Source: a virus. From it: a stretch of DNA of 28,319 nucleotides. A model generated the notes under the pieces. It worked only from the letters and a program-made list of their open reading frames with translations, did no database searches and was not told where the DNA came from. A program made the position numbers and the translations under genes. This document shows, piece after piece, positions 1,723 through 22,409 of this stretch (position 1 is its first letter; every line of letters begins with the position of its first letter). The stretch is taken from positions 33,033 through 61,351 of the IMG/VR virus record IMGVR_UViG_3300002242_000019; one strand, given 5' to 3'.

Positions 1723-1739
1723 TATTAAAGTCTGTCTAG
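1723..1739 (-). promoter_or_regulatory. CTAG-N5-TATA promoter for the 1701 operon
   Basis: Minus strand reads CTAG (1739-1736), five bases, then CTTTAATA (1730-1723). The TATA centre is 25 nt upstream of the ATG at 1701, predicting a leaderless mRNA. It belongs to the fixed-spacing promoter class described in the findings and shares the divergent intergenic region with the CobS-like gene promoter. Confidence 0.7.
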
Positions 1740-1759
1740 TAGAATATGTACTATAACGA

Positions 1760-1767
1760 TTTAAATA
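1760..1767 (+). promoter_or_regulatory. TATA box of the CobS-like operon
   Basis: TTTAAATA is centred 26 nt upstream of the ATG at 1790. The four bases at the usual CTAG position are CTAT, a one-base mismatch to the element seen at other promoters; a CTAG lies further up at 1736-1739 and belongs to the divergent promoter. Confidence 0.65.
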
Positions 1768-1789
1768 ATAGTAAAATAATATTACTGTA

Positions 1790-2710
1790 ATGAAGACTGA
1801 TACAAACGAAGCCATTGATCGTGTAAATAAAATAAATTTTGATATTTATTCACCAGAAAATATTGAAGATATGGGTGATTACATAGATCTACATGGTGAA
1901 CGTAAACGATTAGAAAACGTAATAGAACGAGCCAATAAACCATACTTGATATATGGTGCAAAAGGTATAGGTAAAACATCCTTAGTGCATTCCATATGTA
2001 GAGATAAAGGGTATGGTTTAGTTGAAGTGAATTGCAGTGCTGGTACAAATAATGCAAGACTTGAAGGAAGATTACAAGTAGATAACCAAGGATCTTACTT
2101 TGAAAGAGGTATCATACCTACTGCATTTGAAGCAAGTAATCACTTTAAACATATCGTGTTGTATATAGATGAAATTGGTGCATTAAATCATGACATACAA
2201 AAATGGTTAAACAGACCACTTGACAAAAGAAACAGTTGTAATGCTGGTGGTAGAACATACAAATTGAATCCAGACTGTAAAATGTCAATCATTGCAACTA
2301 CAAACCCTGTTGAATATGCTGGTGTAAATAATCTTACAGAGGATTTACGATCCAGATTTATCGGTAGAGTTTGGGATTATCCTAGTTCTGAACAAATGTC
2401 TAGAATTATTGACTGGACTGATATACCAGAATTTGATGTGAAAGAACCACTCTTAACATTGGCACAAGACACCTATGGTTTAAGAACTAAAGGTGATGTT
2501 GAGTATGTGTTATCAACTAGAGATATCTTGCAGTTTGTAGATGTTTATAGAGATTTGATAGCAGACTATGATGATGATGATCCAAATATCATTACTAATG
2601 TCTTAATGGAAACAATACATGAAACCATTATGATAAAGTATACAGATCCTAACGAACGTGAACTAATTAAAGCTAGGGTGCAGGAAACATTTGGAGTGAC
2701 TTTCAAATGA
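1790..2710 (+). CDS. cobS: MoxR/CobS-like AAA+ ATPase
   Basis: A 306-residue AAA+ ATPase. Visible are Walker A G-A-K-G-I-G-K-T (56-63), Walker B I-V-L-Y-I-D-E-I (122-129), sensor I A-T-T-N-P (169-173) and an arginine-finger-like L-R-S-R-F (186-190). True CobS is the ATPase subunit of aerobic cobaltochelatase. Viral members of this family are paired, as here, with a VWA protein and may instead act as a MoxR-type remodelling machine. CobS-like genes are reported in metagenomic tailed viruses of marine Thaumarchaeota, where they were proposed as auxiliary metabolic genes. It leads a plus-strand operon from a leaderless promoter, and its stop overlaps the next start (ATGA). The gene symbol denotes family resemblance; no CobN is present in the window. 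Confidence 0.8.
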   Translation: MKTDTNEAIDRVNKINFDIYSPENIEDMGDYIDLHGERKRLENVIERANKPYLIYGAKGIGKTSLVHSICRDKGYGLVEVNCSAGTNNARLEGRLQVDNQGSYFERGIIPTAFEASNHFKHIVLYIDEIGALNHDIQKWLNRPLDKRNSCNAGGRTYKLNPDCKMSIIATTNPVEYAGVNNLTEDLRSRFIGRVWDYPSSEQMSRIIDWTDIPEFDVKEPLLTLAQDTYGLRTKGDVEYVLSTRDILQFVDVYRDLIADYDDDDPNIITNVLMETIHETIMIKYTDPNERELIKARVQETFGVTFK

Positions 2711-3021
2711 CCTCACCTCCTTTTTCTTGTAAAAATGTTCATAACTTTGATGAAAAACCATCACCAGATCCTGATTTATGTATGCATTGCTGGTTTTTAA
2801 AAATAAATAAAGATCTTGAAAAATTATATGATACTGCTGACATACCTTGTCAATGTGGATGTAAGGATGTATGCCCTGAATGTGACGGTGAACGATACTG
2901 TGACTATGGTAGAGGTGAAGATGAAAGTATTGAAGGATGCCAAGTATGTAATGAAGAGGGTCATATAGAAAATGAAGATGATGATTATGATGCTTGGAGG
3001 GATGCACGATTAAATGACTGA
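2707..3021 (+). CDS. cysteine-rich zinc-binding protein (DnaJ-like knuckles)
   Basis: A 104-residue protein with many paired cysteines: C-M-H-C early, then C-Q-C-G-C, C-P-E-C-D-G-E, and C-Q-V-C-N-E-E-G-H. The C-x2-C-x-G-x-like spacing recalls the DnaJ cysteine-rich domain, which binds two zinc ions, but no J domain is present. The tail is very acidic (E-D-D-D-Y-D). It overlaps the CobS-like stop by 4 nt and sits between the two genes of the AAA+/VWA pair. It could be an adaptor for that pair; that is inference from position. Confidence 0.65.
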   Translation: MTSPPFSCKNVHNFDEKPSPDPDLCMHCWFLKINKDLEKLYDTADIPCQCGCKDVCPECDGERYCDYGRGEDESIEGCQVCNEEGHIENEDDDYDAWRDARLND

Positions 3022-3139
3022 CAATGAAAATTTCCATTGTTCTCATCAAGGAAGAGTTCATATGGATTATGTATTTAATGGTGAGGATGAGGTAAGAGTG
3101 TTTACATGTGATAATTGTGGGGAGGAATTAGACTTATGA
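3014..3139 (+). CDS. 41-residue zinc-ribbon-like protein
   Basis: A short frame starts with ATG at 3014 inside the end of the previous gene and stops at 3137-3139. It contains F-H-C-S-H near residues 7-11 and F-T-C-D-N-C-G-E-E near 31-39, a plausible four-ligand zinc site (C, H, C, C). Overlaps of 8 nt upstream and 4 nt downstream (ATGA) fit the tightly packed operon and support it being real. Confidence 0.6.
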   Translation: MTDNENFHCSHQGRVHMDYVFNGEDEVRVFTCDNCGEELDL

Positions 3140-3375
3140 GATGTAAAGTATGTTTAAAATCATTCAAAAGAACTGTTAATAAAAAATGCTGGAATGTATA
3201 TGGCATGTGCATAACATGTTGTGTTATTAAACATCCAAACGCATATCCTAAAAATATAGTAATGATGACATTGACAAAAGCAGGACTTTATAAAAGTCCT
3301 AAAAATAAATTCTATGCTGGTAAGACTAGAGACACTTATAACACAGTAAAACAAAAGGAAGTTAGAAATGGCTAG
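3136..3375 (+). CDS. small basic cysteine protein
   Basis: A 79-residue, lysine-rich protein starting M-R-C-K-V-C-L-K-S-F, with further cysteines in K-K-C-W-N-V-Y-G-M-C-I-T-C-C. This is a two-knuckle zinc-binding pattern. The ATG at 3136 overlaps the previous stop (ATGA) and is preferred over the in-frame start at 3115. The C-terminus overlaps the start of the VWA gene by 8 nt. Charge and zinc site suggest nucleic-acid binding; no family is recognised. Confidence 0.6.
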   Translation: MRCKVCLKSFKRTVNKKCWNVYGMCITCCVIKHPNAYPKNIVMMTLTKAGLYKSPKNKFYAGKTRDTYNTVKQKEVRNG

Positions 3376-5080
3376 AAATAGAGATCTGTTAACTGATAAA
3401 GAGTTTTTTAGAAAAACTTGTGATATTGCTGAACATATGAGAAATTGTACAATAGAAGTTATGTATTGGGATGACGATAACAAAGTGATTTCAGACAATG
3501 ATGATGATACAAAGTTTAGATTAAATGTTGCAACTCCAGCAGTTAAAGGTATTGAAAAATTTACTGCATTTAACCATGAAATAGGACATATTATAATGCA
3601 AAGTCCTCTAGCGGAAGCAAAATTACTTGTAGATGAATGGTGTTGTGAGTTTGAATTGGTTAATAGAATAGATAGAAATAATATTTCACAAAAAGACTTG
3701 GTAAGAGATACTTATTGGAATATGATGAATGTATTGGAAGATCAAAGAATTGAATCGTTAATGAGAAGGTTGTGGTTAGCAAACAAAAAAAGATTTACCA
3801 AAGCTAAAAAAAACAGAGGTAAATTACATAAAGAATGTAACACTAACCCTGTAAATATAATATTAAACATAAGATTTTTCAGAGAAGACTTGGCTAAAAA
3901 ACATGATAATTTTGATGTTTATAAAAAAGCGTTGGATGATGTTGAGAATACTGGTAGGTTAGGTGCATTAATAGTATTAAAAAAATTAAAACCTATTCTT
4001 GATGAATGGTTGAAAACCAATATAGATGAAGAAAATAAAACAGATCTTCAACATTTTCCAGATGCACATTATCACGAACCTTATGACGGAAGTGATACAG
4101 AGACAATGTCAACAGATCCTGATCAAATAAAAACAAATAATATTTTAGAGATTATTGACAGTATTGAATCCGATGAAGAATATGATGATGAATTAGAAAC
4201 ATCAAAAAATGATGGTACGGAAGATATTAATGAGTTAAAAGGATCTTTGAGTACATTAGAGGGTAAAGATGATCCACTTAAACCATCATATATGAAACCA
4301 GCTCAAAGACATGCTTGTGAGTATGATGTAGATTCACATTTGTCACATAATCTTAAAAATGTATTTAGAAAAATATCAGAAATGCCTAAAGATACAATAG
4401 GTTATGAAGGTGAGGAAATAGACATGGAGTCATTTATTGAAAATAAAATCAGAGGTTATGATATAAATAATTGTTTTGTTGATACGAAAATAGATTATGG
4501 CTTATCAGTAGTATTGTCAATAGATGGATCTCAATCTATGAAACAGAATAATAAGATGGAACAAACCAGAAATCTAGTTGCTACTTTGTTTGATTCTGTA
4601 AAAGATTATCCAATGATAAATCTAAAGGCAAATGTATGGTCTAGTAACACTCATGGAGATGTAGGTATTACAAATATTGAAAAAATAGAAGACTGTAAGT
4701 ATGTTACAGAGAGAAACAGTCAAGGTTTCTGTCTAACACCTACTCATTTGGCATTGGATTATGCATCCAGAACATTGAAGAGTATGAAAGGTAGAAGGAA
4801 AATAATTATCTTAATAACTGATGGAATCCCTCAATATCAGAATTGGGGTTACAACATATCTGATAAAACATTACTTTCAATGAACAAAAAAGCAATGTTA
4901 AAGTCTAGAAGAATATCAAATGAGATTGTTGTTTTGGCTGTAGGTATGAGATCTGATGGTATAAATCACTTAAGATCAGTTTTTGGTGATGGTAGAGTAG
5001 TTACTGTAAATAATATGGATGATGGCTCTAGATTAATTGTAAATAAGTTCAAAAATGCTGTACTAGACACACTTAAATAG
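3368..5080 (+). CDS. cobT: CobT-like VWA protein with N-terminal HExxH motif
   Basis: A 570-residue partner of the AAA+ ATPase at 1790. Near the N-terminus is H-E-I-G-H (70-74), an HExxH zincin-type motif in a helix. The middle, around residues 235-310, is acidic and probably disordered. The C-terminal third is a von Willebrand A domain with the MIDAS motif D-G-S-Q-S (386-390), a conserved Thr near 455 and I-T-D-G near 483-486. In magnesium and cobalt chelatases and in MoxR systems, the VWA protein is the metal-dependent adaptor for the AAA+ ring. An HExxH-bearing CobT-like protein is typical of viral copies and is hard to explain by cobalamin synthesis alone. Its last codons contain the promoter of the next gene. 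Confidence 0.78.
   Translation: MARNRDLLTDKEFFRKTCDIAEHMRNCTIEVMYWDDDNKVISDNDDDTKFRLNVATPAVKGIEKFTAFNHEIGHIIMQSPLAEAKLLVDEWCCEFELVNRIDRNNISQKDLVRDTYWNMMNVLEDQRIESLMRRLWLANKKRFTKAKKNRGKLHKECNTNPVNIILNIRFFREDLAKKHDNFDVYKKALDDVENTGRLGALIVLKKLKPILDEWLKTNIDEENKTDLQHFPDAHYHEPYDGSDTETMSTDPDQIKTNNILEIIDSIESDEEYDDELETSKNDGTEDINELKGSLSTLEGKDDPLKPSYMKPAQRHACEYDVDSHLSHNLKNVFRKISEMPKDTIGYEGEEIDMESFIENKIRGYDINNCFVDTKIDYGLSVVLSIDGSQSMKQNNKMEQTRNLVATLFDSVKDYPMINLKANVWSSNTHGDVGITNIEKIEDCKYVTERNSQGFCLTPTHLALDYASRTLKSMKGRRKIIILITDGIPQYQNWGYNISDKTLLSMNKKAMLKSRRISNEIVVLAVGMRSDGINHLRSVFGDGRVVTVNNMDDGSRLIVNKFKNAVLDTLK
5063..5079 (+). promoter_or_regulatory. CTAG-N5-TATA promoter inside the end of the VWA gene
   Basis: CTAG (5063-5066), five bases, then CTTAAATA (5072-5079). 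The TATA centre is 25 nt before the ATG at 5101. The element is encoded by the last codons and stop of the VWA gene. It is the only plus-strand example of the fixed-spacing class found. Confidence 0.65.
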
Positions 5081-5100
5081 TTATTTTTACTAGTTTCTCA

Positions 5101-5355
5101 ATGGTAAAAGAAAATCAAAAAAGCATATACAGTAGACAAGAAATCAAAGAACTTATAAGTGAGTTAACCGATCAAGAAACGGTACAAGAAGTGGTATTCA
5201 GTAGATCAAAAACTATTAAAAGAATCAAAGAGATTCAAAATGAAATATGGATTCCGATACATAGAGATAAGGAAGAGTATTTTACTAATATGGATGACTC
5301 TGAATTAAAAAGACAGTTGGCTATGCATGAATATGCATTGGCTAATCCAGAATGA
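5101..5355 (+). CDS. small hypothetical protein
   Basis: An 84-residue charged, mainly helical protein rich in E, K and Q, with no recognisable motif. It is the first gene of a second plus-strand unit, with a leaderless start supported by the TATA box 25 nt upstream. It overlaps the next gene by 4 nt (ATGA). Confidence 0.65.
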   Translation: MVKENQKSIYSRQEIKELISELTDQETVQEVVFSRSKTIKRIKEIQNEIWIPIHRDKEEYFTNMDDSELKRQLAMHEYALANPE

Positions 5356-5618
5356 GTTTATCAGAAAGAGAGAGGTTTCTCTATCATCTCTCTGTTTTAA
5401 TGACAATGGACACTGTAAAAAATGAAATTGATATTGATGTTGACGAAATGTTATATGCAATATGGAAAAACAGATGCAGAAGTTTAACAGAATCTGACAT
5501 AAAAAGTATATACAAGGAAGTTGAAGAAGAAGCTATGAATGGAACAAGTGTTTATGAAGAGTTCACTGCAAGAATTACATATGATAAAGATGAGGATAAA
5601 GATGACGAATACAGATAA
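5352..5618 (+). CDS. small acidic hypothetical protein
   Basis: An 88-residue helical protein with a strongly acidic C-terminus (Y-D-K-D-E-D-K-D-D-E-Y-R). No family is recognised. The ATG at 5352 overlaps the previous stop. Its C-terminal codons overlap the start of the next, cysteine-containing gene at 5602. Confidence 0.6.
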   Translation: MSLSERERFLYHLSVLMTMDTVKNEIDIDVDEMLYAIWKNRCRSLTESDIKSIYKEVEEEAMNGTSVYEEFTARITYDKDEDKDDEYR

Positions 5619-5724
5619 ACTGTGTAATATTTGTCTTTTATTAGAGAAAACTTTGGATTATGAGTCTTTGGATTTATGTAATAAATGTTATAAACTAGTA
5701 AATGATAAACTAACTGAGAAATAA
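5602..5724 (+). CDS. 40-residue zinc-knuckle protein
   Basis: Starts at the ATG at 5602, inside the end of the previous gene. It carries L-C-N-I-C-L near residue 8 and L-C-N-K-C-Y near residue 27, two C-x2-C pairs forming a probable single zinc site. The stop overlaps the next start by one base (TAATG), as in a coupled operon. Confidence 0.6.
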   Translation: MTNTDKLCNICLLLEKTLDYESLDLCNKCYKLVNDKLTEK

Positions 5725-5924
5725 TGTGTAATGGTGTATGTTCTAGATTTAAAAAAGAGTTAGGTATTAACTACTATTGTCAAGGCTGTGCCAAATTCAT
5801 AAGCAAGTCTAATGTAGTTAAAGAATCAAAAATAAATGGTAGAATGAGATGTTCTTGTTGTAATGGTCTTGTTAGAAATAAAGGAAGAATTAGAACAGTT
5901 CATGGATTTAAAGCGATTCATTAG
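5724..5924 (+). CDS. thaumarchaeal-type C-x-G-[IV]-C zinc ribbon protein
   Basis: A 66-residue protein: C-N-G-V-C-S-R-F at the N-terminus, Y-C-Q-G-C-A-K-F-I in the middle and R-C-S-C-C-N-G-L-V-R-N-K near the C-terminus. The same layout (C-x-G-I-C-x-[RK], C-x2-C, C-x-C-C-x-G-x-[LV]-R-[TN]) occurs in a widespread family of small proteins in Nitrosopumilus-like archaea, recalled from experience. It is paralogous to the protein at 21398-21610. The 3' end overlaps the convergent zincin gene by 17 nt. Function unknown; zinc binding is likely. Confidence 0.7.
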   Translation: MCNGVCSRFKKELGINYYCQGCAKFISKSNVVKESKINGRMRCSCCNGLVRNKGRIRTVHGFKAIH

Positions 5925-6150: not shown

Positions 6151-6171
6151 AATAGCGATAATGGTTTTTCA

Positions 6172-7056: not shown

Positions 7057-7067
7057 GAGTGTAATAT

Positions 7068-8114: not shown

Positions 8115-10047
8115 CTGCCATCACCTTTATCTGGTTTGTTTTCTCCCACATTCCAAATATTTTCTGTCTTTCCAAATCATTGATACCTTCTGCATCAAGT
8201 TTCTTGAAGAACTCATTAATTTTTACACATCCGTTTTTATCTGCACACTGTTCCCATATATGTATGTGTAATTGTTGTTTGGACATTTTACCAGTGCTAC
8301 CAATTAATGTAGACTGTGTACCCTGTGATTTGACTAAATCAATTCCAAAGTTGTTAAACATATCAACTAGTAGATTTTTTACTGCATTAATATCTTCTAA
8401 CTCAACATTTTGTTTGAATCTTAGTTTAGCATGTGCCATTGATAGTCTTATCAGTGCTTCAAGTTGTCTAATACCTATGTTTAATTCACTGTTTGAAGAC
8501 TGTCTAAGTTTCTCATATATCTTTACTATTTCATCCCTGACTTCTTTAGTGATTTTTGGAGTGTATTTTTTTGCTTCATTAATAAATGCAGATAGTTCAA
8601 GGTTGTTAAATCTACAATCATTATTACTTTCAGTTTCATCAAAACCGTCAAGTATGTGATTAGCTTTCATAATATCCTCTGTCACATTAACACCATCACG
8701 AATCAACCAGATAAGATCAAATCTAGATAACAGTGGGCTTGGTATGTTTATGTTATCCATCAATGATAAGTCAGGATCATAATTACCAAATTTTGGGTTA
8801 GCTGCCGCCATTATACTAGTCTTTGCTTCCAAAGTCAATGATATACCAGCCTTAGCTATAGATACTGTTTGTTGTTCCATGGCTTCGTGCATAGAACTTC
8901 TGTCATCTTTACCCATCTTATCAAACTCATCTATGAATGCATATCCACCAGAACATAAAGGTAATACACCAGCTTGTGCAACCATTCTACCATCAGATAG
9001 TTTTACCATACCTATTGTAAGACCAGCACTTGTTGAACCTCTACCACTTGTATACACTGATTTTTGTGTTATACTTTTACCATATTTTAAGAGTTCAGAC
9101 TTAGCCATACTTGGATCTCCCACTAAAAGTATGTTGATATCCCCCCTCTTTTTGGTCTTAACACCACCAACAAGCTGTAGTAGACATGATAATTTTATGT
9201 TATCATACCCATAAATGTCAGGTGCATAACTGTGAACCAATTTCTTTATGAAGTCTTCGTCTTTTGATTCTTTAAGTAATTGCTCTTTAGCCTCCTTACT
9301 AGGTAAAATATCCCTGTTATCATCCAAGTCTGATATTGACAATATATCAATCATTACTTCATGTTCATCATCCTTTGGTTTAATCATTGACCTGAATATA
9401 CCTATTATTTTCTTTCTTTGACCAATAAACGAAGTGCCTACATTGTCACCTACTAATTTACCATAGAATAATATAGGTGAATTATTGTCTGCTGACTCCA
9501 ATGGCTGTTGTAACAATATAGTCTGAATATCATCTGTTGTAAGATTTCTTTTTACTATCTCCATTTTGGCTCTACTACAACCAGAATTCATGCATTGTAA
9601 TACAGGCATTGTTCTATCAAATGTACAACTTACCCTCTCAGTTGCAAAACATTTAGGACATTCAACGTCTGCTGATTTTATGTATGTTTTAGGTGCATCT
9701 GTTGCTATAACAGTTGCTTCAAAACATATTGTTTCACCCTCTTTTTTAGAGTTAATTTCTCTCATAGGCATGTCCTCTGTTGAAGTTAATTTGATTTTTA
9801 ACTGACTGAATGCAGTATTAACATCTATACCCACTAATCTCTGTGACAATATTCTTAACACAGCATGTCTAAATAATGGTATAAAGTCACCCTGTCTAGA
9901 CAAATACAAATCTATAAAATCATCACTTGATATGTCTACAGTTACAGTGTCTGTAGGTCTGATACTTGAAAGTTTGTCATTCCAGTATCTGTGATTCAAT
10001 ACTTCGTATATTTTGTCTTGTACTGCGGAGTCTGTATATGTTGTCAT
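8092..10047 (-). CDS. mcm: MCM replicative helicase
   Basis: A 651-residue archaeal-type minichromosome maintenance helicase. The N-terminal domain carries a zinc site C130-P-K-C133 ... C152-x4-C157. The AAA+ core shows Walker A G-D-P-S-M-A-K-S (310-317), the presensor region Y-T-S-G-R-G-S-T-S-A-G-L-T, Walker B A-F-I-D-E-F-D-K-M (370-378), sensor I A-A-A-N-P (about 414-418) and arginine finger L-S-R-F-D (440-444). The C-terminus (about 590-651) looks like the usual winged helix. It forms a hexamer unwinding DNA at the virus fork. No primase or polymerase is seen in the window. It overlaps the upstream gene (ATGA) and RadA downstream. Confidence 0.95.
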   Translation of the reverse strand: MTTYTDSAVQDKIYEVLNHRYWNDKLSSIRPTDTVTVDISSDDFIDLYLSRQGDFIPLFRHAVLRILSQRLVGIDVNTAFSQLKIKLTSTEDMPMREINSKKEGETICFEATVIATDAPKTYIKSADVECPKCFATERVSCTFDRTMPVLQCMNSGCSRAKMEIVKRNLTTDDIQTILLQQPLESADNNSPILFYGKLVGDNVGTSFIGQRKKIIGIFRSMIKPKDDEHEVMIDILSISDLDDNRDILPSKEAKEQLLKESKDEDFIKKLVHSYAPDIYGYDNIKLSCLLQLVGGVKTKKRGDINILLVGDPSMAKSELLKYGKSITQKSVYTSGRGSTSAGLTIGMVKLSDGRMVAQAGVLPLCSGGYAFIDEFDKMGKDDRSSMHEAMEQQTVSIAKAGISLTLEAKTSIMAAANPKFGNYDPDLSLMDNINIPSPLLSRFDLIWLIRDGVNVTEDIMKANHILDGFDETESNNDCRFNNLELSAFINEAKKYTPKITKEVRDEIVKIYEKLRQSSNSELNIGIRQLEALIRLSMAHAKLRFKQNVELEDINAVKNLLVDMFNNFGIDLVKSQGTQSTLIGSTGKMSKQQLHIHIWEQCADKNGCVKINEFFKKLDAEGINDLERQKIFGMWEKTNQIKVMADGTWKRT

Positions 10048-10376
10048 AACCTTTTCTCCGTTTCTTTATTGATCAGATTGTTCAACTGTGAAAATCTTTT
10101 CTGTAGTTTTTTAAACCCATCTGGTTTCAAACTGTTAAGATGTTTTTCCCACTTTAGAATGTTAGCATAGAACAATGGTAGTTCTGCTGTTACATCAATG
10201 TGATCAAAGTCTGTTATTCTTGCTGATGTTCTGTGTTTCTTAACATAGTCATCTGCTACTACTGCTAAAAACAAACTGAAACTCATATGTTCTGGTTTCA
10301 TTCTATTTAGCGATTCAAAAATAGGAGAAGCATACTGACCTACTGACAGTGTTACTGTGTTTCTATTAAATTGCAT
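10044..10376 (-). CDS. hypothetical protein upstream of MCM
   Basis: A 110-residue, largely helical protein with no motif I recognise; it has a basic C-terminus (K-K-L-Q-K-R-F ... E-T-E-K-R-L). It is the first gene of the MCM-RadA operon, overlapping MCM by 4 nt. The leaderless start at 10376 has a TATA box 25 nt upstream. Position next to the helicase and the candidate origin makes a replication role such as MCM loading possible, but sequence alone does not show it. Confidence 0.65.
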   Translation of the reverse strand: MQFNRNTVTLSVGQYASPIFESLNRMKPEHMSFSLFLAVVADDYVKKHRTSARITDFDHIDVTAELPLFYANILKWEKHLNSLKPDGFKKLQKRFSQLNNLINKETEKRL

Positions 10377-10397
10377 ATATTGATATTATTAGTATGT

Positions 10398-10414
10398 TAT
10401 TTAAAACTTGCTAG
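10398..10414 (-). promoter_or_regulatory. CTAG-N5-TATA promoter of the MCM-RadA operon
   Basis: Minus strand: CTAG (10414-10411), five bases, TTTAAATA (10405-10398), centred 25 nt before the start at 10376. This is the only strong promoter seen for the replication operon. Confidence 0.75.
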
Positions 10415-10428
10415 TAACTTGATCAACT

Positions 10429-10519
10429 GTTAGCTAACATGCTGTTCTTAGAAAAAATAAGTTAGTTAAGTTATTAACTAAGTTAGTATTGGTGACTTAG
10501 TTATTAAGTTAGTTAAGTT
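10429..10519. repeat. iteron-like repeats, candidate replication origin
   Basis: A perfect 10-bp palindrome GTTAGCTAAC lies at 10429-10438. AAGTTAGTTAAGTT occurs exactly twice in the same direction at 10459-10472 and 10506-10519. Further TTAGTTA/TAACTAA variants lie between them, including the inverted AGTTATTAACT. The stretch is very AT-rich, codes for nothing and abuts the MCM operon promoter. Direct repeats in AT-rich DNA beside a helicase gene are a common origin layout. They could equally be operator sites. Confidence 0.45.
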
Positions 10520-10524
10520 TATTT

Positions 10525-10643
10525 TGTAAAGAAAAATATGTAGGTGATAGCGTATCTACACTTTTTCACCTACGTTTGATTTTGCCTACTCAGGAGCATG
10601 CGTAACACAGCACGATGTTACCTCCCTTTCGTTTTCTTGTGCT
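10525..10643 (-). ncRNA. candidate small RNA, about 115-120 nt
   Basis: A strong promoter (10665-10681, minus) predicts a start near 10643, but no usable frame follows: the only Shine-Dalgarno (GGAGGT) leads to a seven-codon frame. The predicted RNA begins AGCAC and can pair with a GTGCT further on. It contains a hairpin with a 6-bp stem GTAACA/TGTTAC (10602-10621). It ends in the stem GTAGGTGA/TCACCTAC (10540-10573) followed by T5 and more T. Promoter, internal structure and terminator together suggest an independent RNA gene. A cis-acting leader is the main alternative. The remaining gene-free bases in 10377-10677 are the repeats and promoter listed separately. Confidence 0.5.
10532..10573 (-). 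terminator. hairpin plus T-tract terminator of the candidate RNA
   Basis: A perfect 8-bp inverted repeat, GTAGGTGA and TCACCTAC, with a loop of 18 nt is followed on the minus strand by ATATTTTTCTTT. The oligo-T fits archaeal termination; the hairpin may stabilise the RNA 3' end. Confidence 0.55.
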
Positions 10644-10664
10644 ATATTCTTTATTCATCTATAT

Positions 10665-10681
10665 TATATAAGTATTACTAG
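10665..10681 (-). promoter_or_regulatory. CTAG-N5-TATA promoter before the candidate RNA
   Basis: Minus strand: CTAG (10681-10678), five bases, CTTATATA (10672-10665). CTAG overlaps the stop codon of the 10678-10845 gene. The usual spacing predicts transcription from about 10643. Confidence 0.7.
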
Positions 10682-10845
10682 TTGTTTACTAACATAACAT
10701 CGGTTGTTACATCATCAGGCATTACTAATGATGGTTGAACATCTCTTTCAACAAAGGAATTAATGAATCCTTGGATTTTACTTGAGTCTACATATGATTT
10801 AAGAATCTCACCTTTTTTGTTTTTCCATGAAATTTCAATGAACAT
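10678..10845 (-). CDS. 55-residue hypothetical protein
   Basis: A short frame beginning M-F-I-E-I-S-W-K-N-K-K-G and ending T-T-D-V-M-L-V-N-N. An edge-strand-like start, a helix around K-I-Q-G-F-I-N-S-F-V-E-R and an acidic V-M-P-D-D-V-T-T-D tail suggest a small alpha/beta fold. The start at 10845 is supported by the TATA box 26 nt upstream. The end coincides with the promoter of the candidate RNA. No family is recognised. Confidence 0.6.
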   Translation of the reverse strand: MFIEISWKNKKGEILKSYVDSSKIQGFINSFVERDVQPSLVMPDDVTTDVMLVNN

Positions 10846-10867
10846 AGAGTGTTCTATGGTTATGGGG

Positions 10868-10884
10868 TATTTAAGAATTGCTAG
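10868..10884 (-). promoter_or_regulatory. CTAG-N5-TATA promoter of the 10845 gene
   Basis: Minus strand: CTAG (10884-10881), five bases, CTTAAATA (10875-10868), centred about 26 nt before the start at 10845. It abuts the stop of the winged-helix frame. Confidence 0.7.
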
Positions 10885-11124
10885 TTATATGAGCTTGTAT
10901 AAACCATCTGTTCTCTGTATAACTTTATCCTGCATTAGTATTCTTAGTATGTTACTTAGATTACCAGTGCTTCTAATTTTAGCATTATTAGCTATTTCTG
11001 TAAATGTTAGTAACCCATCTGATTCTTTAATAGTATCTAATACTCTATCAAAATTAGTTATTTTTGGAGTGTTAGGTGCTGGAACAGGAGTATCTAACAG
11101 ACGTTTGTTCTTTCTTACTACTCT
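10885..11124 (-). pseudogene. winged-helix domain without a start codon, probable frameshifted C-terminus of the phosphoesterase
   Basis: An open frame of 79 codons. After a Pro-rich linker (D-T-P-V-P-A-P-N-T-P-K) comes a winged-helix-like domain: F-D-R-V-L-D-T-I-K-E, L-T-F-T-E-I-A-N-N-A-K-I, L-S-N-I-L-R-I-L-M-Q-D-K-V-I-Q-R and the wing T-D-G-L-Y-K-L-I. No ATG, GTG or TTG lies between the in-frame stop upstream and the domain. Removing one base at the CTAG of 11123-11126 joins it to the phosphoesterase (G-H-I then R-V-V-R-K), giving one protein of about 346 residues. This is either a real mutation, a recoding site or a sequence error. Confidence 0.6.
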
Positions 11125-11926
11125 AGATATGTCCTACCACTTTCCCTTGATATGCATCTATTGATAAAGTTGCAGTGCCAGTTTGACCATACACTACTTC
11201 ATTTTTTCTATCCATATATCCATCAGTATTATCTACTAATGTACGACAAAAAGTACCAGCATTAATAAGGTGAATATCTCTTTCCCATCTTTGACCAGTT
11301 TCAAAGTCAAAATCACTTACTAGCTCTGGTGTATATCTTTTCTGATGCAAATGTCCACATAGAAATATGTCTGCATACACATTCTTTTTCATTTGATCAA
11401 ACATTCTTTCAGGTTTACCCCCACCTGAACCGTGTATTGCTAGCATAGTCCACTGTCCTAATACTTTCTTTTTATGAGTAATTTCCAATCCTATTAATGC
11501 TCTACTGCCAAGGAATTCTATATTATTAGGCTCACAAAATTGATTTTCAATGTAAGATCTTGTTATTTCTCTGATGTTATATTCGTGGTTGCCATGCAGA
11601 AGACCGCCAATTTTTTCACTATTTGATTCCTTATGAACATCTATTAATGGCTGTGATAGTTTTTGCCATATTTTTCTCTGATTATCAACGTCATGTTCTA
11701 TTGATGTGTCAGGATTATATCTTTTATCATAGGTTGTTATAGCATCTAATTGATCTCCTAAAAATAATGTATACCTGTGTTTATCTTTTGCTATTGCTTT
11801 GATTCGTTTTTTATAAAGTTCCTCATCAAAACCAGCGTGTCCTATATGAATGTCAGATAACGGTTCTAAGTGAACAATATCATCTTTCTTTTCAAGTTCT
11901 ATATTCCATTTTTTTGCAAATACCAT
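11123..11926 (-). CDS. calcineurin-like (Mre11/SbcD-type) phosphoesterase
   Basis: A 267-residue metallophosphoesterase with all usual motifs: S-D-I-H-I-G-H (24-30), G-D-Q-L-D (57-61), G-N-H-E (112-115), a lone H165 in A-I-H-G-S and G-H-L-H (191-194), coordinating two metal ions. Such enzymes cut DNA or phosphodiesters; Mre11/SbcD nucleases work in end processing, but no Rad50/SbcC partner is present here. The frame stops at a TAG within CTAG, and a winged-helix domain continues in the next frame. The leaderless start at 11926 has a TATA box centred 25 nt upstream. Confidence 0.8.
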   Translation of the reverse strand: MVFAKKWNIELEKKDDIVHLEPLSDIHIGHAGFDEELYKKRIKAIAKDKHRYTLFLGDQLDAITTYDKRYNPDTSIEHDVDNQRKIWQKLSQPLIDVHKESNSEKIGGLLHGNHEYNIREITRSYIENQFCEPNNIEFLGSRALIGLEITHKKKVLGQWTMLAIHGSGGGKPERMFDQMKKNVYADIFLCGHLHQKRYTPELVSDFDFETGQRWERDIHLINAGTFCRTLVDNTDGYMDRKNEVVYGQTGTATLSIDAYQGKVVGHI

Positions 11927-11947
11927 AATTAAATCACATCATACATA

Positions 11948-11964
11948 TATTTAAGAGTTGCTAG
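11948..11964 (-). promoter_or_regulatory. CTAG-N5-TATA promoter of the phosphoesterase
   Basis: Minus strand: CTAG (11964-11961), five bases, CTTAAATA (11955-11948). It overlaps the 3' end of the upstream gene and is centred 25 nt before the start at 11926. Confidence 0.75.
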
Positions 11965-12238
11965 TTATTTTATTTTCGTCTATTGAATGTGATTCTGTCT
12001 GCATTTTTTTATATTGCTTTCTTTTAATATCATTTTTATAACCATCTGGTAAGTGATGTATACATGGCTCTAGCAATGTTGATTTACCACACCTATCACA
12101 GTCAAGTATTACCTTAGCCATTTTTCTTTTAGCCATTGCTTTATAAACAGGATCTTCTGGATTATATTTTCCAGTACTACTCTGTTTAAATTCTTTTAAC
12201 GGTTTCCATTTACCGTTTGGTAGTTTTTCCCATTTCAT
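11951..12238 (-). CDS. small basic protein with a zinc knuckle
   Basis: A 95-residue protein rich in K, starting M-K-W-E-K-L-P-N-G-K-W. It holds C-D-R-C-G-K near 47-51 and C-I-H-H near 59-62, a probable zinc site of type C-x2-C ... C-x-H or C-x2-H. The start overlaps the upstream zincin stop (ATGA). The end runs into the promoter of the phosphoesterase. Function unknown. Confidence 0.6.
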   Translation of the reverse strand: MKWEKLPNGKWKPLKEFKQSSTGKYNPEDPVYKAMAKRKMAKVILDCDRCGKSTLLEPCIHHLPDGYKNDIKRKQYKKMQTESHSIDENKITSNS

Positions 12239-12777
12239 ATTTTTTTCACAGACCTTGAGTTTGTAACATCTTCTATGTCTACACCTATAAAATTAAATGT
12301 TTTCCATCTAGTTAGTTTGTATTTGAACTGTTTTACCCTACCTTCTGTAACCCTATCATGTACCTCAGAGCTAAAAAACTTGCGTGAATCGCCTGCTTTA
12401 CCATGAAAATCGTTATTTCTCATTTTAACTATTTTATCAGGATAGTATATCATAAGTATCATATGTGCTAATTCATGGCATATTACAGTCATGTTTTGCA
12501 TTGTGATTAGATTATTCTTACTATCTGTAACATAACATGTTATTTCACCCAAACCAGTAACACCGTGAGGTATACTAAAATCTAAATCTTGGGCTCTTGG
12601 ATCTGATGAATAAAATTGATGGTCATAGTCACTTGTTTTTCTAATACTTATTTTCCACTTATCTTGTTTTATTATTCTTTCATAGTCTTTATAGTAATAA
12701 TGATCATAAATATATTTTAAAATTAGTTTTTGATACAGTTTTTCATCTAATACATCTGTAGTAAAATCTATTCTCAC
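12235..12777 (-). CDS. HExxH zinc protease-like protein (SprT-like)
   Basis: A 180-residue protein with V-I-C-H-E-L-A-H-M-I (98-107), the HExxH zincin motif, preceded by a strand (E-I-T-C-Y-V) as in SprT/WSS1-like proteases. F-H-G near 124 may supply a third His ligand. SprT-type proteins act on DNA-bound proteins, but only the active-site pattern is visible here. It starts with GTG at 12777, chosen because the TATA box is centred 25 nt upstream and no ATG lies nearby. Confidence 0.6.
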   Translation of the reverse strand: MRIDFTTDVLDEKLYQKLILKYIYDHYYYKDYERIIKQDKWKISIRKTSDYDHQFYSSDPRAQDLDFSIPHGVTGLGEITCYVTDSKNNLITMQNMTVICHELAHMILMIYYPDKIVKMRNNDFHGKAGDSRKFFSSEVHDRVTEGRVKQFKYKLTRWKTFNFIGVDIEDVTNSRSVKKI

Positions 12778-12798: not shown

Positions 12799-12815
12799 TA
12801 TTTATACATTTCTAG
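12799..12815 (-). promoter_or_regulatory. CTAG-N5-TATA promoter of the SprT-like gene
   Basis: Minus strand: CTAG (12815-12812), five bases, TATAAATA (12806-12799), centred 25 nt before the GTG at 12777. Confidence 0.7.
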
Positions 12816-12829: not shown

Positions 12830-13177
12830 TTATTGTTGCTTTTTTTGTGATTTTGGAAACATTGATAAACAAATCATAGGTCTATCAGTCTTATCCGAAA
12901 TACGTTCAACAACATAACAGTCTAGTCCATCAGAGGCATCTTTATCAACACATTTTTCAACAACTTCATTCCAGTAATCGGATTTTGCTTGACCAACTAC
13001 TGTCTTTCCAAATGAGTGTCTTAAGCCATCTGTAGTTTTAATCTCTGCTACATCTGCACCTAAACTTTCAACATGTTTGACTTCAAAGCCTTGAATGACT
13101 ATTTTCTCCCCCACTTGTAGTGGAGTAGAATCATTTCCCTGTGAACTGGATATATCCAGTACGTCTGAAACATTCAT
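12830..13177 (-). CDS. hypothetical beta-rich protein, possibly an OB fold
   Basis: A 115-residue protein. V-G-E-K-I-V-I-Q-G-F-E-V-K-H-V, A-E-I-K-T-T-D-G-L-R-H-S-F-G and C-Y-V-V-E-R-I make a run of beta strands with small turns, and the tail is K/Q-rich (K-S-Q-K-K-Q-Q). Single-strand-binding proteins of archaeal viruses can look like this, but no diagnostic motif is present. A leaderless start from the promoter at 13200-13216 and an oligo-T after the stop make it a monocistronic unit, consistent with a strongly expressed protein. Confidence 0.6.
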   Translation of the reverse strand: MNVSDVLDISSSQGNDSTPLQVGEKIVIQGFEVKHVESLGADVAEIKTTDGLRHSFGKTVVGQAKSDYWNEVVEKCVDKDASDGLDCYVVERISDKTDRPMICLSMFPKSQKKQQ

Positions 13178-13199: not shown

Positions 13200-13216
13200 T
13201 ATATAAGGCTTACTAG
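13200..13216 (-). promoter_or_regulatory. CTAG-N5-TATA promoter of the 13177 gene
   Basis: Minus strand: CTAG (13216-13213), five bases, CTTATATA (13207-13200), about 26 nt before the start at 13177. Nineteen consecutive bases (13197-13215) are identical to the promoter at 15714-15732. Confidence 0.78.
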
Positions 13217-13627
13217 TTAATCTAAACTGTTTTGTTTTGCCACTACTACACCAGCAAGATGCACAAGTTGATTTAAAACTGTCTGTCTAATCATTCCAAA
13301 TCTGTCACTGTTTACATCTTCTTTTGAATATACCATTTTAGTTAACTCATGTGCTTCCTTAAAATATTGTTGCCATAACTTACCTATCTTTATAGTATCT
13401 TCTGAAACATTTACTTCTGGTATGTTTGTAATTATTATGTTTGCTGGATTTCCAAATGCTTTTTTGCCAAAAGAATCATTTACAGTTCCTCCTTGATTAA
13501 GAAAACAGTCTTTTTCTATACAAATTGCTTTTGGAGTCTTCTGATAAAAAATTTCATTTCCAACTTTCCAATCACTTCCACAGTTTTTACAAGATCCTTC
13601 AAATTTTGCAGTAATTTTAGTTCCCAT
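13217..13627 (-). CDS. zinc-ribbon hypothetical protein
   Basis: A 136-residue protein. The N-terminus F-E-G-S-C-K-N-C-G-S-D-W-K-V-G-N-E-I ... A-I-C-I-E-K-D-C-F is a four-Cys zinc ribbon of a type common in phage DNA-associated proteins (C-x2-C and C-x4-C). A helical C-terminal half (K-I-G-K-L-W-Q-Q-Y-F-K-E-A-H-E-L) follows. The start at 13627 is supported by the TATA box 26 nt upstream. Function unknown. Confidence 0.62.
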   Translation of the reverse strand: MGTKITAKFEGSCKNCGSDWKVGNEIFYQKTPKAICIEKDCFLNQGGTVNDSFGKKAFGNPANIIITNIPEVNVSEDTIKIGKLWQQYFKEAHELTKMVYSKEDVNSDRFGMIRQTVLNQLVHLAGVVVAKQNSLD

Positions 13628-13649: not shown

Positions 13650-13666
13650 CATATAAGAGTTTCTAG
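13650..13666. promoter_or_regulatory. shared promoter region between the zinc-ribbon and Dam-like genes
   Basis: Minus strand: CTAG (13666-13663), five bases, CTTATATG (13657-13650), 26 nt before the start at 13627. It sits inside an inverted repeat ATTACTAG ... CTAGTAAT whose right arm ends in the ATG of the divergent plus-strand gene at 13669. The plus-strand gene probably uses the TTATTAAT further left (about 13636-13643). One bound factor could therefore affect both genes. Confidence 0.65.
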
Positions 13667-13668: not shown

Positions 13669-14121
13669 ATGGATTTACATGAAAAGCCTAGAAGTAAAAA
13701 ATCATTAAGTGATGAGTATGAAACTCCTGATGAAGTTTTTAAACTACTCTGTAATAAATATAAAATAATTCCATCTATAGATGTATGTGCGAATGTAGAT
13801 AATAAAAAGTGTAGAGATTTTTTTGGAGTTAACAGTAATGGATTAAAATGTGACTGGTCTGTGGATGCATGGGTAAACCCTCCGCATTCTATAACTGGTG
13901 ACTTTGTAAAAAAAGCATATGAACAATGGAAAGAAAACAATATCAATATTATGATGATTATACCAGCAAACACATGCAGTAGTAAATACTGGCATGAATA
14001 TATTGAAGGTAATGCTGAATATCATGCCATCAAAGGCAGAATCAGATTTTTATACAATGGAAAACCTAGTGATTTTATGAGTAGGAATGCTTACATGTGT
14101 ATTATATTTAGAAGCAACTAA
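13669..14121 (+). CDS. phage-type DNA adenine methyltransferase (Dam-like)
   Basis: A 150-residue protein like the small phage DNA N6-adenine methyltransferases. D-E-Y-E-T-P-D-E-V-F (15-24) is the usual start of the fold, I-D-V-C-A-N (37-42) resembles the SAM-binding strand, and W-V-N-P-P-H-S (68-74) is the catalytic (D/N)PP(Y/H) motif. M-I-I-P-A-N-T and G-R-I-R-F also occur in the family. It would protect viral DNA or mark it; no cognate restriction enzyme is nearby. His replaces the usual aromatic residue after N-P-P. The 3' end overlaps the convergent metzincin gene by 14 nt. Confidence 0.75.
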   Translation: MDLHEKPRSKKSLSDEYETPDEVFKLLCNKYKIIPSIDVCANVDNKKCRDFFGVNSNGLKCDWSVDAWVNPPHSITGDFVKKAYEQWKENNINIMMIIPANTCSSKYWHEYIEGNAEYHAIKGRIRFLYNGKPSDFMSRNAYMCIIFRSN

Positions 14122-14929: not shown

Positions 14930-14964
14930 ACCTTATATAACACGAATCTATACCTTATATAACA
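14930..14964 (+). promoter_or_regulatory. duplicated TATA/operator repeat before the RHH gene
   Basis: ACCTTATATAACA occurs at 14930-14942 and again at 14952-14964, exactly 22 bp apart (about two helix turns). The first copy is the TATA box, centred 27 nt before the ATG at 14964; the second runs into the ATG. Such tandem sites are typical operators of ribbon-helix-helix proteins, so autoregulation is likely. Confidence 0.55.
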
Positions 14965-15203
14965 TGGCTAGAAGAAAAATAGGTAATTCTCACACTACCA
15001 TATCTATCACATGGGAAGATAAAGAAAAATTTAGACAATTTGCAAAATTTGTTAAAAAAACAAAAACTGGTGATTTGTATGAGTCTGATGCTGTCTTATT
15101 TCACAAAATATTAACATTTTACAACGAACATCACGAATCAAGTGAAAACAGACCAACATATCCAAGCAGAGTTACTTCTCAAGAACATGTCCAGCAAGAT
15201 TAA
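14964..15203 (+). CDS. ribbon-helix-helix-like transcription regulator
   Basis: A 79-residue protein. Basic start M-A-R-R-K-I-G-N, strand H-T-T-I-S-I-T, helix W-E-D-K-E-K-F-R-Q-F-A-K-F-V, then Y-E-S-D-A-V-L-F-H-K-I-L-T-F-Y matches the CopG/RHH strand-helix-helix order. The strand alternates polar T-I-S-I-T side chains that would read the major groove. Tandem repeats cover its own start. The 3' end overlaps the convergent RNase H gene by 32 nt. Confidence 0.62.
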   Translation: MARRKIGNSHTTISITWEDKEKFRQFAKFVKKTKTGDLYESDAVLFHKILTFYNEHHESSENRPTYPSRVTSQEHVQQD

Positions 15204-15716: not shown

Positions 15717-15733
15717 TATATAAGGCTTACTAT
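15717..15733 (-). promoter_or_regulatory. variant ATAG-N5-TATA promoter of the 15693 gene
   Basis: Minus strand: ATAG (15733-15730), five bases, CTTATATA (15724-15717). ATAG replaces CTAG because it includes the stop codon of the upstream gene. The sequence 15714-15732 is identical to 13197-13215. Confidence 0.68.
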
Positions 15734-18170: not shown

Positions 18171-18192
18171 AATTAAGTATAAATGGGATAAT

Positions 18193-18200
18193 ATATAAAG
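18193..18200 (-). promoter_or_regulatory. TATA box before the 18170 gene
   Basis: CTTTATAT on the minus strand, centred 26 nt before the ATG at 18170, just after the terminase stop. There is no CTAG upstream. This is a possible late-type promoter for the genes after terminase. Confidence 0.55.
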
Positions 18201-18207
18201 TATTCTG

Positions 18208-20098: not shown

Positions 20099-20117
20099 TA
20101 TATAACATTTAATTTTA

Positions 20118-20876
20118 TCACTTAATAAAGTTATCTGTATATGAGTTCAATGACTTACATAAAGGCATGTAATACAAGGCTATTGGCAGTTTAAGCATTG
20201 TATAGTAATGATTATCCAACACATCATCATACTTAATACCTATTATATCCATATTGTCCTTGTATTTTTTACAGTAATGTTTCAGTATGGGGTCGTTCAT
20301 ATTATTAACGTTGATTTTTATCTGCATGGATGAGTTTCCAGTCCAAACATCGAATTTTTTTGCAAGTGCCGCAGATATCCATAAACTTGTGTCTATACTT
20401 TCAAATGTTTTTTTATTAATGTACTTACCTTTTCCCAAACCATGATATTTCATACTTACAGGCAAACGTCTTATGGCTTCTTCCATGTCAAGCCTCCCAC
20501 TCATTTTACCAACACATACGTTTGAACCGTTTGGAAGATTGAGTTGGCTAAGATGTTTGATAAAATCCTGCTGGAGTACTGGTATTGTATTCAATCCCAT
20601 ATTATTTTCTTTTTTAAAGATGTTTATAGTGTCACACATATTATTGTTAACAAAAAACTGTGCCGCATGAGTGTACAATTCTTTATTATCTTTCAAAAAC
20701 TCATGGTATTTATCTTCCTCGCCATTGACTCCTGCTATCAAAAATATTTTTTCAAAACAATCATGAAACTGTTTTAAATTATGTGAGTATTTATGAGATA
20801 CCAATACGTTCTTTACACCGCATGACTGTAGTGACTCTAATGTTGCCTTGTTATTGGCGTTAAAGAATATATTCAT
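20118..20876 (-). CDS. TIM-barrel protein resembling tRNA-guanine transglycosylase/DpdA
   Basis: A 252-residue protein. Alternating strands N-V-L-V-S, I-F-L-I-A-G, T-I-P-V-L-Q (97-102) and N-V-C-V-G-K-M-S-G-R-L-D (119-130) fit a TIM barrel. K-Y-H-G-L-G-K-G (143-150) and E-S-I-D-T-S-L-W (159-166) resemble the [IV]-P-V-[LV]-Q-G, G-G, H-G-[LF]-G and S-[IV]-D-[ST]-[ST]-x-W landmarks of TGT-like phage proteins. Such enzymes exchange guanine for 7-deazaguanines in tRNA or, as DpdA, in DNA. The archaeal host makes preQ0 for archaeosine, so substrate would be available. No preQ0 pathway gene is in the window, and the similarity is by eye only. Confidence 0.42.
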   Translation of the reverse strand: MNIFFNANNKATLESLQSCGVKNVLVSHKYSHNLKQFHDCFEKIFLIAGVNGEEDKYHEFLKDNKELYTHAAQFFVNNNMCDTINIFKKENNMGLNTIPVLQQDFIKHLSQLNLPNGSNVCVGKMSGRLDMEEAIRRLPVSMKYHGLGKGKYINKKTFESIDTSLWISAALAKKFDVWTGNSSMQIKINVNNMNDPILKHYCKKYKDNMDIIGIKYDDVLDNHYYTMLKLPIALYYMPLCKSLNSYTDNFIK

Positions 20877-21301
20877 TTTAAATATGGTGAAGCAGATAAT
20901 GTTTTAACCATTTTTTTATACTTTCTTTTTATCATTCTATATTTGGGAATAAAGCATGGATAACATTCTTTAGAACAGTATTTTGATCCTGATTTTTTGA
21001 AAAGTTTTTTACATGTAGGACATTTCTTTGTTTTTATAGGATTGGCTTTTCTATATCTAGCCTTAGCTAACAAACTGTGTTTAATAGCCTTGCATTTAAT
21101 ACTGCATGAAGTTGGTATAGAACCAGAAGCACCGCTACTACCCCTTCCGTTATGTGTAAACGTAGTGTCACATATGTCACATAGGAATACATATGGATTA
21201 CTAGACATTCTACAAGATTTACAGAACTGATCTTTTTCTTTCCTGCCTCCTTTTACTTCATTTAAACATACAAAATTATAACATTTTTGCATATCATTCA
21301 C
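20873..21301 (-). CDS. multi-zinc-knuckle protein
   Basis: A 142-residue basic protein with repeated C-x2-C pairs: C-K-S-C, C-D-I-C-D, C-S-I-K-C, C-P-T-C-K-K-L-F and C-S-K-E-C. The C-P-T-C-K-K-L-F-K-K-S-G-S-K-Y-C-S-K-E-C part is an FCS-type zinc finger like that of the 15550-15693 protein. The start is probably GTG at 21301, with ATG at 21292 as alternative. It overlaps both neighbours. A nucleic-acid-binding role is likely from the zinc fingers and high K/R content. Confidence 0.65.
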   Translation of the reverse strand: MNDMQKCYNFVCLNEVKGGRKEKDQFCKSCRMSSNPYVFLCDICDTTFTHNGRGSSGASGSIPTSCSIKCKAIKHSLLAKARYRKANPIKTKKCPTCKKLFKKSGSKYCSKECYPCFIPKYRMIKRKYKKMVKTLSASPYLK

Positions 21302-21401
21302 CTACTATTTTATGACATATGCACTGACATTTAATATTACTTCTTGTTATAGGACAGTCAAAGTGTCTATGAGTGTGACATTCAGGAGATATGAACTTCA
21401 T
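21294..21401 (-). CDS. 35-residue Cys/His-rich protein
   Basis: A short frame from ATG 21401, overlapping the previous stop (ATGA), to TGA 21294, which overlaps the next start. It holds P-E-C-H-T-H-R-H-F-D-C and K-C-Q-C-I-C-H-K, enough Cys and His for one or two zinc ions. Perfect coupling to both neighbours argues that it is translated. Confidence 0.5.
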   Translation of the reverse strand: MKFISPECHTHRHFDCPITRSNIKCQCICHKIVGE

Positions 21402-21610
21402 ATCCGTGTTAGATAGCACTCCTTTTTACCTCTGCTTCTGTTGTTAGTTCTTACTTTTCCATTACAACAAGGGCATCTGTATTTTTTTATCTTCTTAAAA
21501 TCATATCCCTTGTTACAGTTTTTACAGTAACAGTACAAGCCTTCATTATAATTTACTTTTTTATAGTGAATTTTTGGAAATCTGTCACATATACCTTTAC
21601 AGCCAGTCAT
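21398..21610 (-). CDS. thaumarchaeal-type C-x-G-[IV]-C zinc ribbon protein (paralog)
   Basis: A 70-residue protein: G-C-K-G-I-C-D-R-F near the N-terminus, Y-C-Y-C-K-N-C-N-K-G in the middle, and Y-R-C-P-C-C-N-G-K-V-R-T-N-N at about 45-58. It aligns with the protein at 5724-5924 along its length, so the virus carries two diverged copies. The first position overlaps the upstream nuclease stop by one base (TAATG). Function unknown; likely acquired from or shared with the host. Confidence 0.7.
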   Translation of the reverse strand: MTGCKGICDRFPKIHYKKVNYNEGLYCYCKNCNKGYDFKKIKKYRCPCCNGKVRTNNRSRGKKECYLTRI

Positions 21611-22371
21611 TATGCGTATTGTTTCCTTTCGTCACCAAAACACATTGAAGCATACGGACACATGCCATCACAAAGAAAACACTTTGTTCTTTCTGGTAAT
21701 GTTTTTTCCAATAAAGAGGATTTTATTACTCTGGATTTTTCAATCATATCTATTAAAGTAGTTTCCATATCTTGCAACTTAAAGGAAATTGTAATAGGCT
21801 TATCCCTTTTGTCTTTTTCTATTCTATTAGAAATGTATATGACACATCCAAAAGTAGCATCTATGTCATAGCATTTTTTTAACAAGACTCTATACCTGTT
21901 AATTTGATCCTTGTGAGACTCACTTGCCTTGCTTGTTGACTTAGAAAAATAGTCTATTGAGCCAGTTGTTTTCTTGTCACATATTACCCATTTGTCACCA
22001 ACTTTTATCAAGTCGTCTATACTTCCATAGATAATATCCAAGTGTTTAGGATCATCATCTGGTATTTTTTTTGCTTCTTCATATGTCAAAGATTCATCTC
22101 TAACATAGTCATATGCCAAAAACATTTCATGGTGTTCTGGTTTTGCCACCATTGAATTGTTATGAACACATTGACCAAAATACAAAGACTTCATATCTTC
22201 TGTACTCATGCCTTGATCTTTACCTATTTTTTTGTATATTACGTTACGCATACACGGTTTAATAATATCTGATACATGTATAGTACCAAGTCTTTCTGTA
22301 TGCATTGCTTCTGTTTGGGCTTTTCTAAACTTAAAGTATATGTCTTGATTTATGTCATCTAGTTTTATCAT
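21610..22371 (-). CDS. Cas4/RecB-like Fe-S PD-(D/E)XK nuclease
   Basis: A 253-residue protein. A lone Cys40 in V-S-D-I-I-K-P-C-M-R and three late ones among C231, C234, C238 and C244 (C-F-L-C-D-G-M-C-P-Y-A-S-M-C) match the four-Cys iron-sulfur site of Cas4/AddB-type nucleases. The nuclease core shows G-x3-H (H70 region), G-S-I-D-D-L (116-121), I-C-D-K-K-T (130-135, (D/E)xK) and a Q-x3-Y-like helix (D-Q-I-N-R-Y). Viral Cas4-like proteins process DNA ends; there is no CRISPR array here. The start has the CTAG-N5-TATA promoter 25 nt upstream. Confidence 0.8.
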   Translation of the reverse strand: MIKLDDINQDIYFKFRKAQTEAMHTERLGTIHVSDIIKPCMRNVIYKKIGKDQGMSTEDMKSLYFGQCVHNNSMVAKPEHHEMFLAYDYVRDESLTYEEAKKIPDDDPKHLDIIYGSIDDLIKVGDKWVICDKKTTGSIDYFSKSTSKASESHKDQINRYRVLLKKCYDIDATFGCVIYISNRIEKDKRDKPITISFKLQDMETTLIDMIEKSRVIKSSLLEKTLPERTKCFLCDGMCPYASMCFGDERKQYA

Positions 22372-22392
22372 ACATAATTATAGAAACTATAT

Positions 22393-22409
22393 TATATAAG
22401 AGTTACTAG
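22393..22409 (-). promoter_or_regulatory. CTAG-N5-TATA promoter of the Cas4-like operon
   Basis: Minus strand: CTAG (22409-22406), five bases, CTTATATA (22400-22393), centred 25 nt before the start at 22371. The stop codon of the upstream small gene is the TAG within CTAG. Confidence 0.75.

Follow-up and report, generated by a model that had tools for sequence, protein, structure and literature searches.

The window analysed here, a stretch of 28,319 nucleotides, runs from base 33033 to base 61351 of the virus record IMG/VR IMGVR_UViG_3300002242_000019, which is 61,351 bases long. The proteins encoded in it include a T4-type large terminase, an MCM helicase and a RadA-type recombinase, as well as an AAA ATPase, a vWA protein, and a Cas4-like protein. 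The nearest named phages match only distantly, in the terminase or the MCM, and none is closely related. Relatives of the terminase (34-50% identity) occur in 3 of 200 genomes from the family of a Nitrosopumilus bin, and the host of this uncultured tailed virus is therefore probably a marine ammonia-oxidising archaeon. Our subject is a promoter element, the tag, in which CTAG lies five bases upstream of a TATA octamer and which an initial annotation reported at eleven places. The sites in the window, with the open reading frames (ORFs) and other features that they serve, are as follows:

1723..1739, minus strand: CTAGACAGA-CTTTAATA, promoter of a 72-residue ORF starting at 1701
1749..1767, plus strand: variant TACTATAACGA-TTTAAATA, promoter of the AAA ATPase gene (ATG at 1790); ACTAG in relatives
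5063..5079, plus strand: CTAGACACA-CTTAAATA, promoter of an 84-residue ORF at 5101; overlaps the 3' end of the vWA gene, and the G050 orthologue has GTTAG
10398..10414, minus strand: CTAGCAAGT-TTTAAATA, promoter of a 110-residue ORF (ATG at 10376), the first of the MCM-RadA gene run
10665..10681, minus strand: CTAGTAATA-CTTATATA, promoter of a conserved non-coding RNA (ncRNA), at the leaderless distance without an ORF
10868..10884, minus strand: CTAGCAATT-CTTAAATA, promoter of a 55-residue ORF at 10845
11948..11964, minus strand: CTAGCAACT-CTTAAATA, promoter of an Mre11/SbcD-like nuclease gene (ATG at 11926)
12799..12815, minus strand: CTAGAAATG-TATAAATA, promoter of a 180-residue ORF (GTG at 12777)
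13200..13216, minus strand: CTAGTAAGC-CTTATATA, promoter of a 115-residue ORF at 13177
13650..13666, minus strand: CTAGAAACT-CTTATATG, promoter of a 136-residue ORF at 13627
15717..15733, minus strand: variant ATAGTAAGC-CTTATATA, about 30 nucleotides upstream of a conserved 47-residue ORF
22393..22409, minus strand: CTAGTAACT-CTTATATA, promoter of the Cas4-like gene (ATG at 22371)

All eleven coordinates in the initial annotation read as it claimed, with 5063-5079 on the plus strand, the remaining ten on the minus strand, and ATAG in place of CTAG at 15717-15733, which is a probable member of the set and weaker than the others. The base before CTAG, described there as A in most cases, is A in 10 of 10. 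Two things were overlooked: the set also includes CTAT variants, such as the one before the AAA ATPase gene (1749-1767, plus strand), and 12 or more further sites are found outside the window on its left, in the 25-32 kb part of the genome. In the window, the strict form CTAG-N5-YTTAWATA occurs 7 times versus a mean of 0.085 and a maximum of 2 in 200 dinucleotide shuffles. A lenient octamer gives 10 occurrences versus a mean of 3.0 and a maximum of 9 in 200 such shuffles; because this count is near the shuffle maximum, the evidence rests on the strict form. The claim of fixed spacing also stands. Across the whole 61-kb virus, the strict form is found 13 times at a spacing of 5 and twice at 9, with no copy at 0-4 or 6-8, and all copies share one orientation relative to TATA. 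The octamer starts 29-30 nucleotides upstream of the start codon in 12/12 ORF-linked strict cases in the virus, which is the geometry of leaderless archaeal promoters. In a positional 5-mer test, ACTAG at -10 from the octamer was recovered from 17 of 68 candidate promoters genome-wide, versus a 99% null maximum of 5.

The extended consensus reads nTACTA[G/t]-n-(A)A-nn-YTTAWATA. The initial annotation had placed CTAG beyond the TFB recognition element (BRE), which is not borne out: CTAG is not wholly outside the BRE, since its G supplies the purine at -6 from TATA, and the A of the BRE comes after it, at -3. Because of this G at -6, CTAG is an upstream extension that contains the BRE purine and no separate box. 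The CTAT variants of this genome have T at -6. Several tagged promoters have another repeated motif, CGCTTTTATACCC, some 20-40 nucleotides upstream of them, in both of two lineages (L003, ~8800-12700; G050, L418).

The proposed division of the genes into two promoter classes was confirmed, and the description of the element as virus-wide was not, since the structural genes are without the tag. Of the 24 leaderless promoters of the non-structural region, 20 have ACTA at -10 when CTAT variants are included; among 10 such promoters of the structural regions it is found once, before the Cas4-like gene (Fisher p = 1e-4, with the boundary between the two regions set after inspection of the data). 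The genes that had been named as untagged (the 6150 gene, the metzincin, the ribbon-helix-helix (RHH) gene, and the 18170 gene) all lack the element. Untagged structural promoters are frequently of a second type with the sequence AATC-TTTAAATA, which is seen in the structural region of G000 (L002), in G050, and in relatives. From its gene content, the tagged class is probably expressed early.

To follow the element in relatives, we used an MCM search that returned 73 loci. The element is abundant at MCM identities of at least 80% and occurs in some relatives near 60%; only 1 of 392 octamers carries it in the 46-53% group and 0 of 61 in the 43% group. Scans of whole records gave 1-9 copies per clade member, with 0 or 1 in reversed controls, and 0-1 copies in each of ~30 sister records. 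Across IMG/VR, the matches listed for the bare pattern do not separate a spacing of 5 from the spacing-6 control. When the positional 5-mer test was applied to promoter sets, ACTAG at -10 was found in every genome of the virus's own clade, and other lineages gave GTTAG at -10 (G050), CTTCA at -13 (G053), ATCAA at -12 (G047), and, as a borderline and tentative signal, AACTC at -14 (G096). G053 and G047 have independent elements, CTTCAAAT and TTAATCAAA, respectively. In addition to these upstream elements, the early promoters of the two (L429 and L438) have ATAACGAC in common a little way downstream of TATA. Downstream positional motifs gave weak signals, with ATAAC in G047 weakly significant.

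The lineages near 60% MCM identity carry various tags in the same register: ACTAG in L013, TTCTAG in L014, TGCTAG in L018-L020, CCAG in L012, GTTAG in L031/G050, ATAG in L066 and L478, and AGAG in L015 and L017. The BRE A follows every one of them, and AG..A stays constant across related lineages. Orthologous promoters switch tag accordingly, from ACTAG in the own clade to GTTAG in G050, ATAG in L066, and AGAG in L017. For a homogeneity test, 88 promoters were picked solely by A at -7, G at -6, and A at -3, and lineage labels were permuted 300 times. Identity within lineages at -10, -9, and -8 exceeded 300 of 300 permutations, which was not the case at -20 to -12 or -5 to -2; position -1 also equals the permutation maximum, and -11 is weak, being reached by 3 of 300 permutations. 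Different genes of one genome agree pairwise at 0.70, 0.90, and 0.97 at -10, -9, and -8, versus 0.22, 0.35, and 0.56 for orthologous genes of different lineages. The sequence around the promoter core is common to non-homologous genes of one virus and differs between viruses.

The probable hosts nearly lack the element. A search of 200 host-family genomes gave 14 matches versus ~100 for the reversed control, and a shorter pattern gave 7 versus 27 in 26 Nitrosopumilaceae genomes. On these below-control frequencies a host promoter class was rejected, as no sizeable host regulon uses the element. As a separate observation, Nitrosopumilaceae promoters near MCM read TTAGTC..ACTAA-N..-CTAG-N-TTTAAATA, with CTAG one base from TATA and often an inverted repeat upstream; they stand before two genes in many hosts (L094:6966 and 7583, L096:4535, L113:6961, and others) and look like a host regulon.

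Taken together, these results lead us to favor, with moderate confidence, a reading in which the tag is a class-specifying part of the core promoter of replication and small accessory genes, with a trans-acting reader matched to each lineage. The tag would then be either an activator site that adjoins the BRE or an extension of the BRE itself. TBP would bind the octamer at about -30, TFB would bind the BRE (with G at -6, and with A at -3), and the bases just upstream (TACTA here) would be read in exact register by a factor that touches TFB or extends its contact. The tagged genes alone would be switched on together; the structural genes use the untagged promoter type. A change in the specificity of the factor between lineages would have brought with it a change of -10 to -8 in all target promoters. 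The factor is most likely an activator, encoded or recruited by the virus, that would contact TFB from -11 to -7. Replacement of the tag throughout a regulon points to co-evolution with a trans-acting reader, and the initial annotation's proposal of a dedicated factor has become much likelier through this concerted change. That each lineage has its own tag suggests that each may have its own matching regulator. A more specific form of the idea, which we put forward tentatively, is that each lineage has its own small initiation or activator protein reading a private -10 to -8 code, the two having changed together repeatedly along with ~10-20 promoters.

Three proteins encoded in the window were considered as readers:

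3136..3375, plus strand: 79-residue CxxC protein, a weak candidate
5724..5924, plus strand: 66-residue Zn-ribbon protein, a candidate
14964..15203, plus strand: RHH-like protein with an untagged promoter, unsupported as a reader

A viral TFB, which the initial annotation had envisaged, is not supported by the records: none of 17 virus records has a match to the TFIIB family (PF00382), and host-family and control archaeal genomes do. Another of its suggestions, the RHH protein, is not supported either: lineages that differ in their element, or have none, show almost the same N-terminal region in this protein. It is found throughout the virus family, and its N-terminal strand hardly changes; the residues presumed to face the DNA vary among lineages, yet the same signature (HTTISITW) occurs with and without the element. 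The RHH-like model has an N-terminal extended segment followed by two helices at low confidence (predicted local distance difference test score, 61), and the protein has no Pfam match and no convincing relative among solved structures. The Zn-ribbon protein is present in most lineages with the element and in several without it, is absent from at least 11 records, and gave no significant match in a fold search. The distribution of the CxxC protein matches the ACTAG/GTTAG genomes, and its homologues also occur in G088 and G064/L065, where no element was detected. On these weak phyletic grounds, both proteins may be considered as candidate readers.

Several points weigh against a lineage-matched reader. 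Among TFB and the RHH, 66-residue, and 79-residue proteins, none could be established as the reader. The remaining large records gave no clear element in the positional test, and many sister lineages of the family are without a detectable element, so that it is dispensable for the gene set. The table of pair agreements was transcribed by hand, and promoter numbers are small for L012, L014, and L018-L020.

Other explanations were weighed against the same observations. The element might be an extended BRE read by one of many host TFB paralogues, with lineages differing by host or by the TFB that they exploit. It does abut the BRE and contain its -6 base, the TFIIB cyclin domain is matched 18 times in one host-family genome and 24 times in another (~9-12 TFBs each), and the virus records offer no TFB of their own; however, the pattern falls below its reversed control in both sets of host genomes, and we consider this explanation unlikely. 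A reader encoded by the virus would be preferred to one from the host. A repressor would equally be virus-specific and co-evolve with its sites, and archaeal viral repressors are known to bind sites that overlap the BRE (PMC5569661, PMC11065993). The tag could then be an operator, autoregulated in the manner of Aca proteins, at which TFB is blocked at early genes as infection proceeds, and several own-clade sites are indeed near-palindromic (TTACTAGTAA). An operator, however, needs no single register and orientation relative to TATA across ~20 promoters, and the sister tags GTTAG and AGAG are not palindromic; activation would account better for the sites, and repression seems to us quite unlikely.

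It is also conceivable that there is no reader and that tags were homogenised by recombination or derive from a spreading promoter cassette, as small accessory genes may travel with their promoters. Recombination of whole promoters is disfavored because the flanks would be homogenised as well, and lineage homogeneity is confined in this respect to -10 to -8 and does not extend to -20 to -12 or -5 to -2. Several tagged genes are, moreover, orthologous across lineages with different tags, and we regard this possibility as very improbable. A role of CTAG as a site of methylation or restriction avoidance is brought to mind by a neighboring gene:

13669-14121, plus strand: Dam-family DNA adenine methyltransferase (PF05869), adjoining the 13666 element and detected only in the own clade

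Yet the virus contains 158 CTAG, mostly remote from TATA, and relatives have GTTAG, ATAG, or AGAG in its place, so that this explanation is hardly credible. In a Pfam scan of 20 small proteins, Dam and Kyano_Gp96 were the only families above the cut-off.

Beyond the tagged protein genes, two further features of the window deserve mention:

10519..10648, minus strand: structured ncRNA of ~120-130 nucleotides, with a terminal T-run and covariation in both of its hairpins; it lies downstream of the CTAG promoter at 10681
23197-27187, minus strand: two long proteins with many RxxxESVSVQTFR-type repeats, probably tail or fibre proteins

The ncRNA segment occurs in own-clade members at MCM identities of at least 80%, with counterparts at L007:9367-9483 and L009:9326-9451. 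Covariation is strong: nine pairs have changed on both sides, a number that 0 of 500 shuffles reach, and slid controls are far lower; no Rfam family was matched. In more distant members of the clade, the start of the model lies ~80 nucleotides downstream of TATA instead of 24. The tagged promoter class thus appears to drive an ncRNA as well. Between the ncRNA and the promoter of the MCM operon (~10415-10520) are conserved direct and inverted repeats (TTAACTTAACTAACTT; AACTAAGT/ACTTAGTT), possibly iterons of a replication origin.

Transcription in archaeal viruses is known mainly from Sulfolobales and haloarchaea. The element gives a sequence-level handle on the separation of gene classes in tailed viruses whose probable hosts are abundant marine ammonia oxidisers. 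It also points to start sites in viruses that lack annotation and can help to single out probable early genes of host takeover. As three bases vary and the core promoter stays, these lineages form a natural experiment in the co-evolution of DNA-binding specificity and regulon. If the private code is real, it would make transcription of the early and replication regulon private to a lineage, perhaps to the exclusion of competing viruses in the same cell.

Sulfolobales viruses have virus-specific early regulatory sequences around TATA/BRE, the diversity of which has been taken to reflect different regulators (PMC11065993). Like the early anti-defence sequences of the SIRV2/Aca8 system (PMC11065993), the element here is a consensus around the TATA/BRE core that is common to many non-homologous genes and differs between viruses. 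In contrast to them, it belongs to tailed, probably thaumarchaeal viruses, its gene set includes the MCM-RadA, nuclease, and Cas4-like genes, and its variable part is three bases in exact BRE register that change in concert between fairly close lineages. The GTC element of SIRV1 and SIRV2 (Kessler et al. 2004, as described in PMC5569661) is likewise virus-specific and constantly placed in most promoters, but it is downstream of TATA, whereas the element here is upstream and abuts the BRE; a host protein, Sta1, is implicated in SIRV viral transcription. Archaeal TFB is reported to prefer a BRE that has G at -6 together with A at -3 (Qureshi and Jackson 1998, according to PMC11065993). Both bases are constant in tagged promoters of related lineages, which unlike a plain BRE have an additional A at -7 and, upstream of it, a lineage-specific triplet at -10 to -8. 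The putative reader would resemble Ptr2 and TFB-RF1 (PMC5569661) in recruiting TBP or TFB from a site beside the core promoter; those, unlike the reader proposed here, are known proteins. New in the present case are the virus group, the replication genes in the set, the exact-register triplet at the BRE, and its replacement lineage by lineage.

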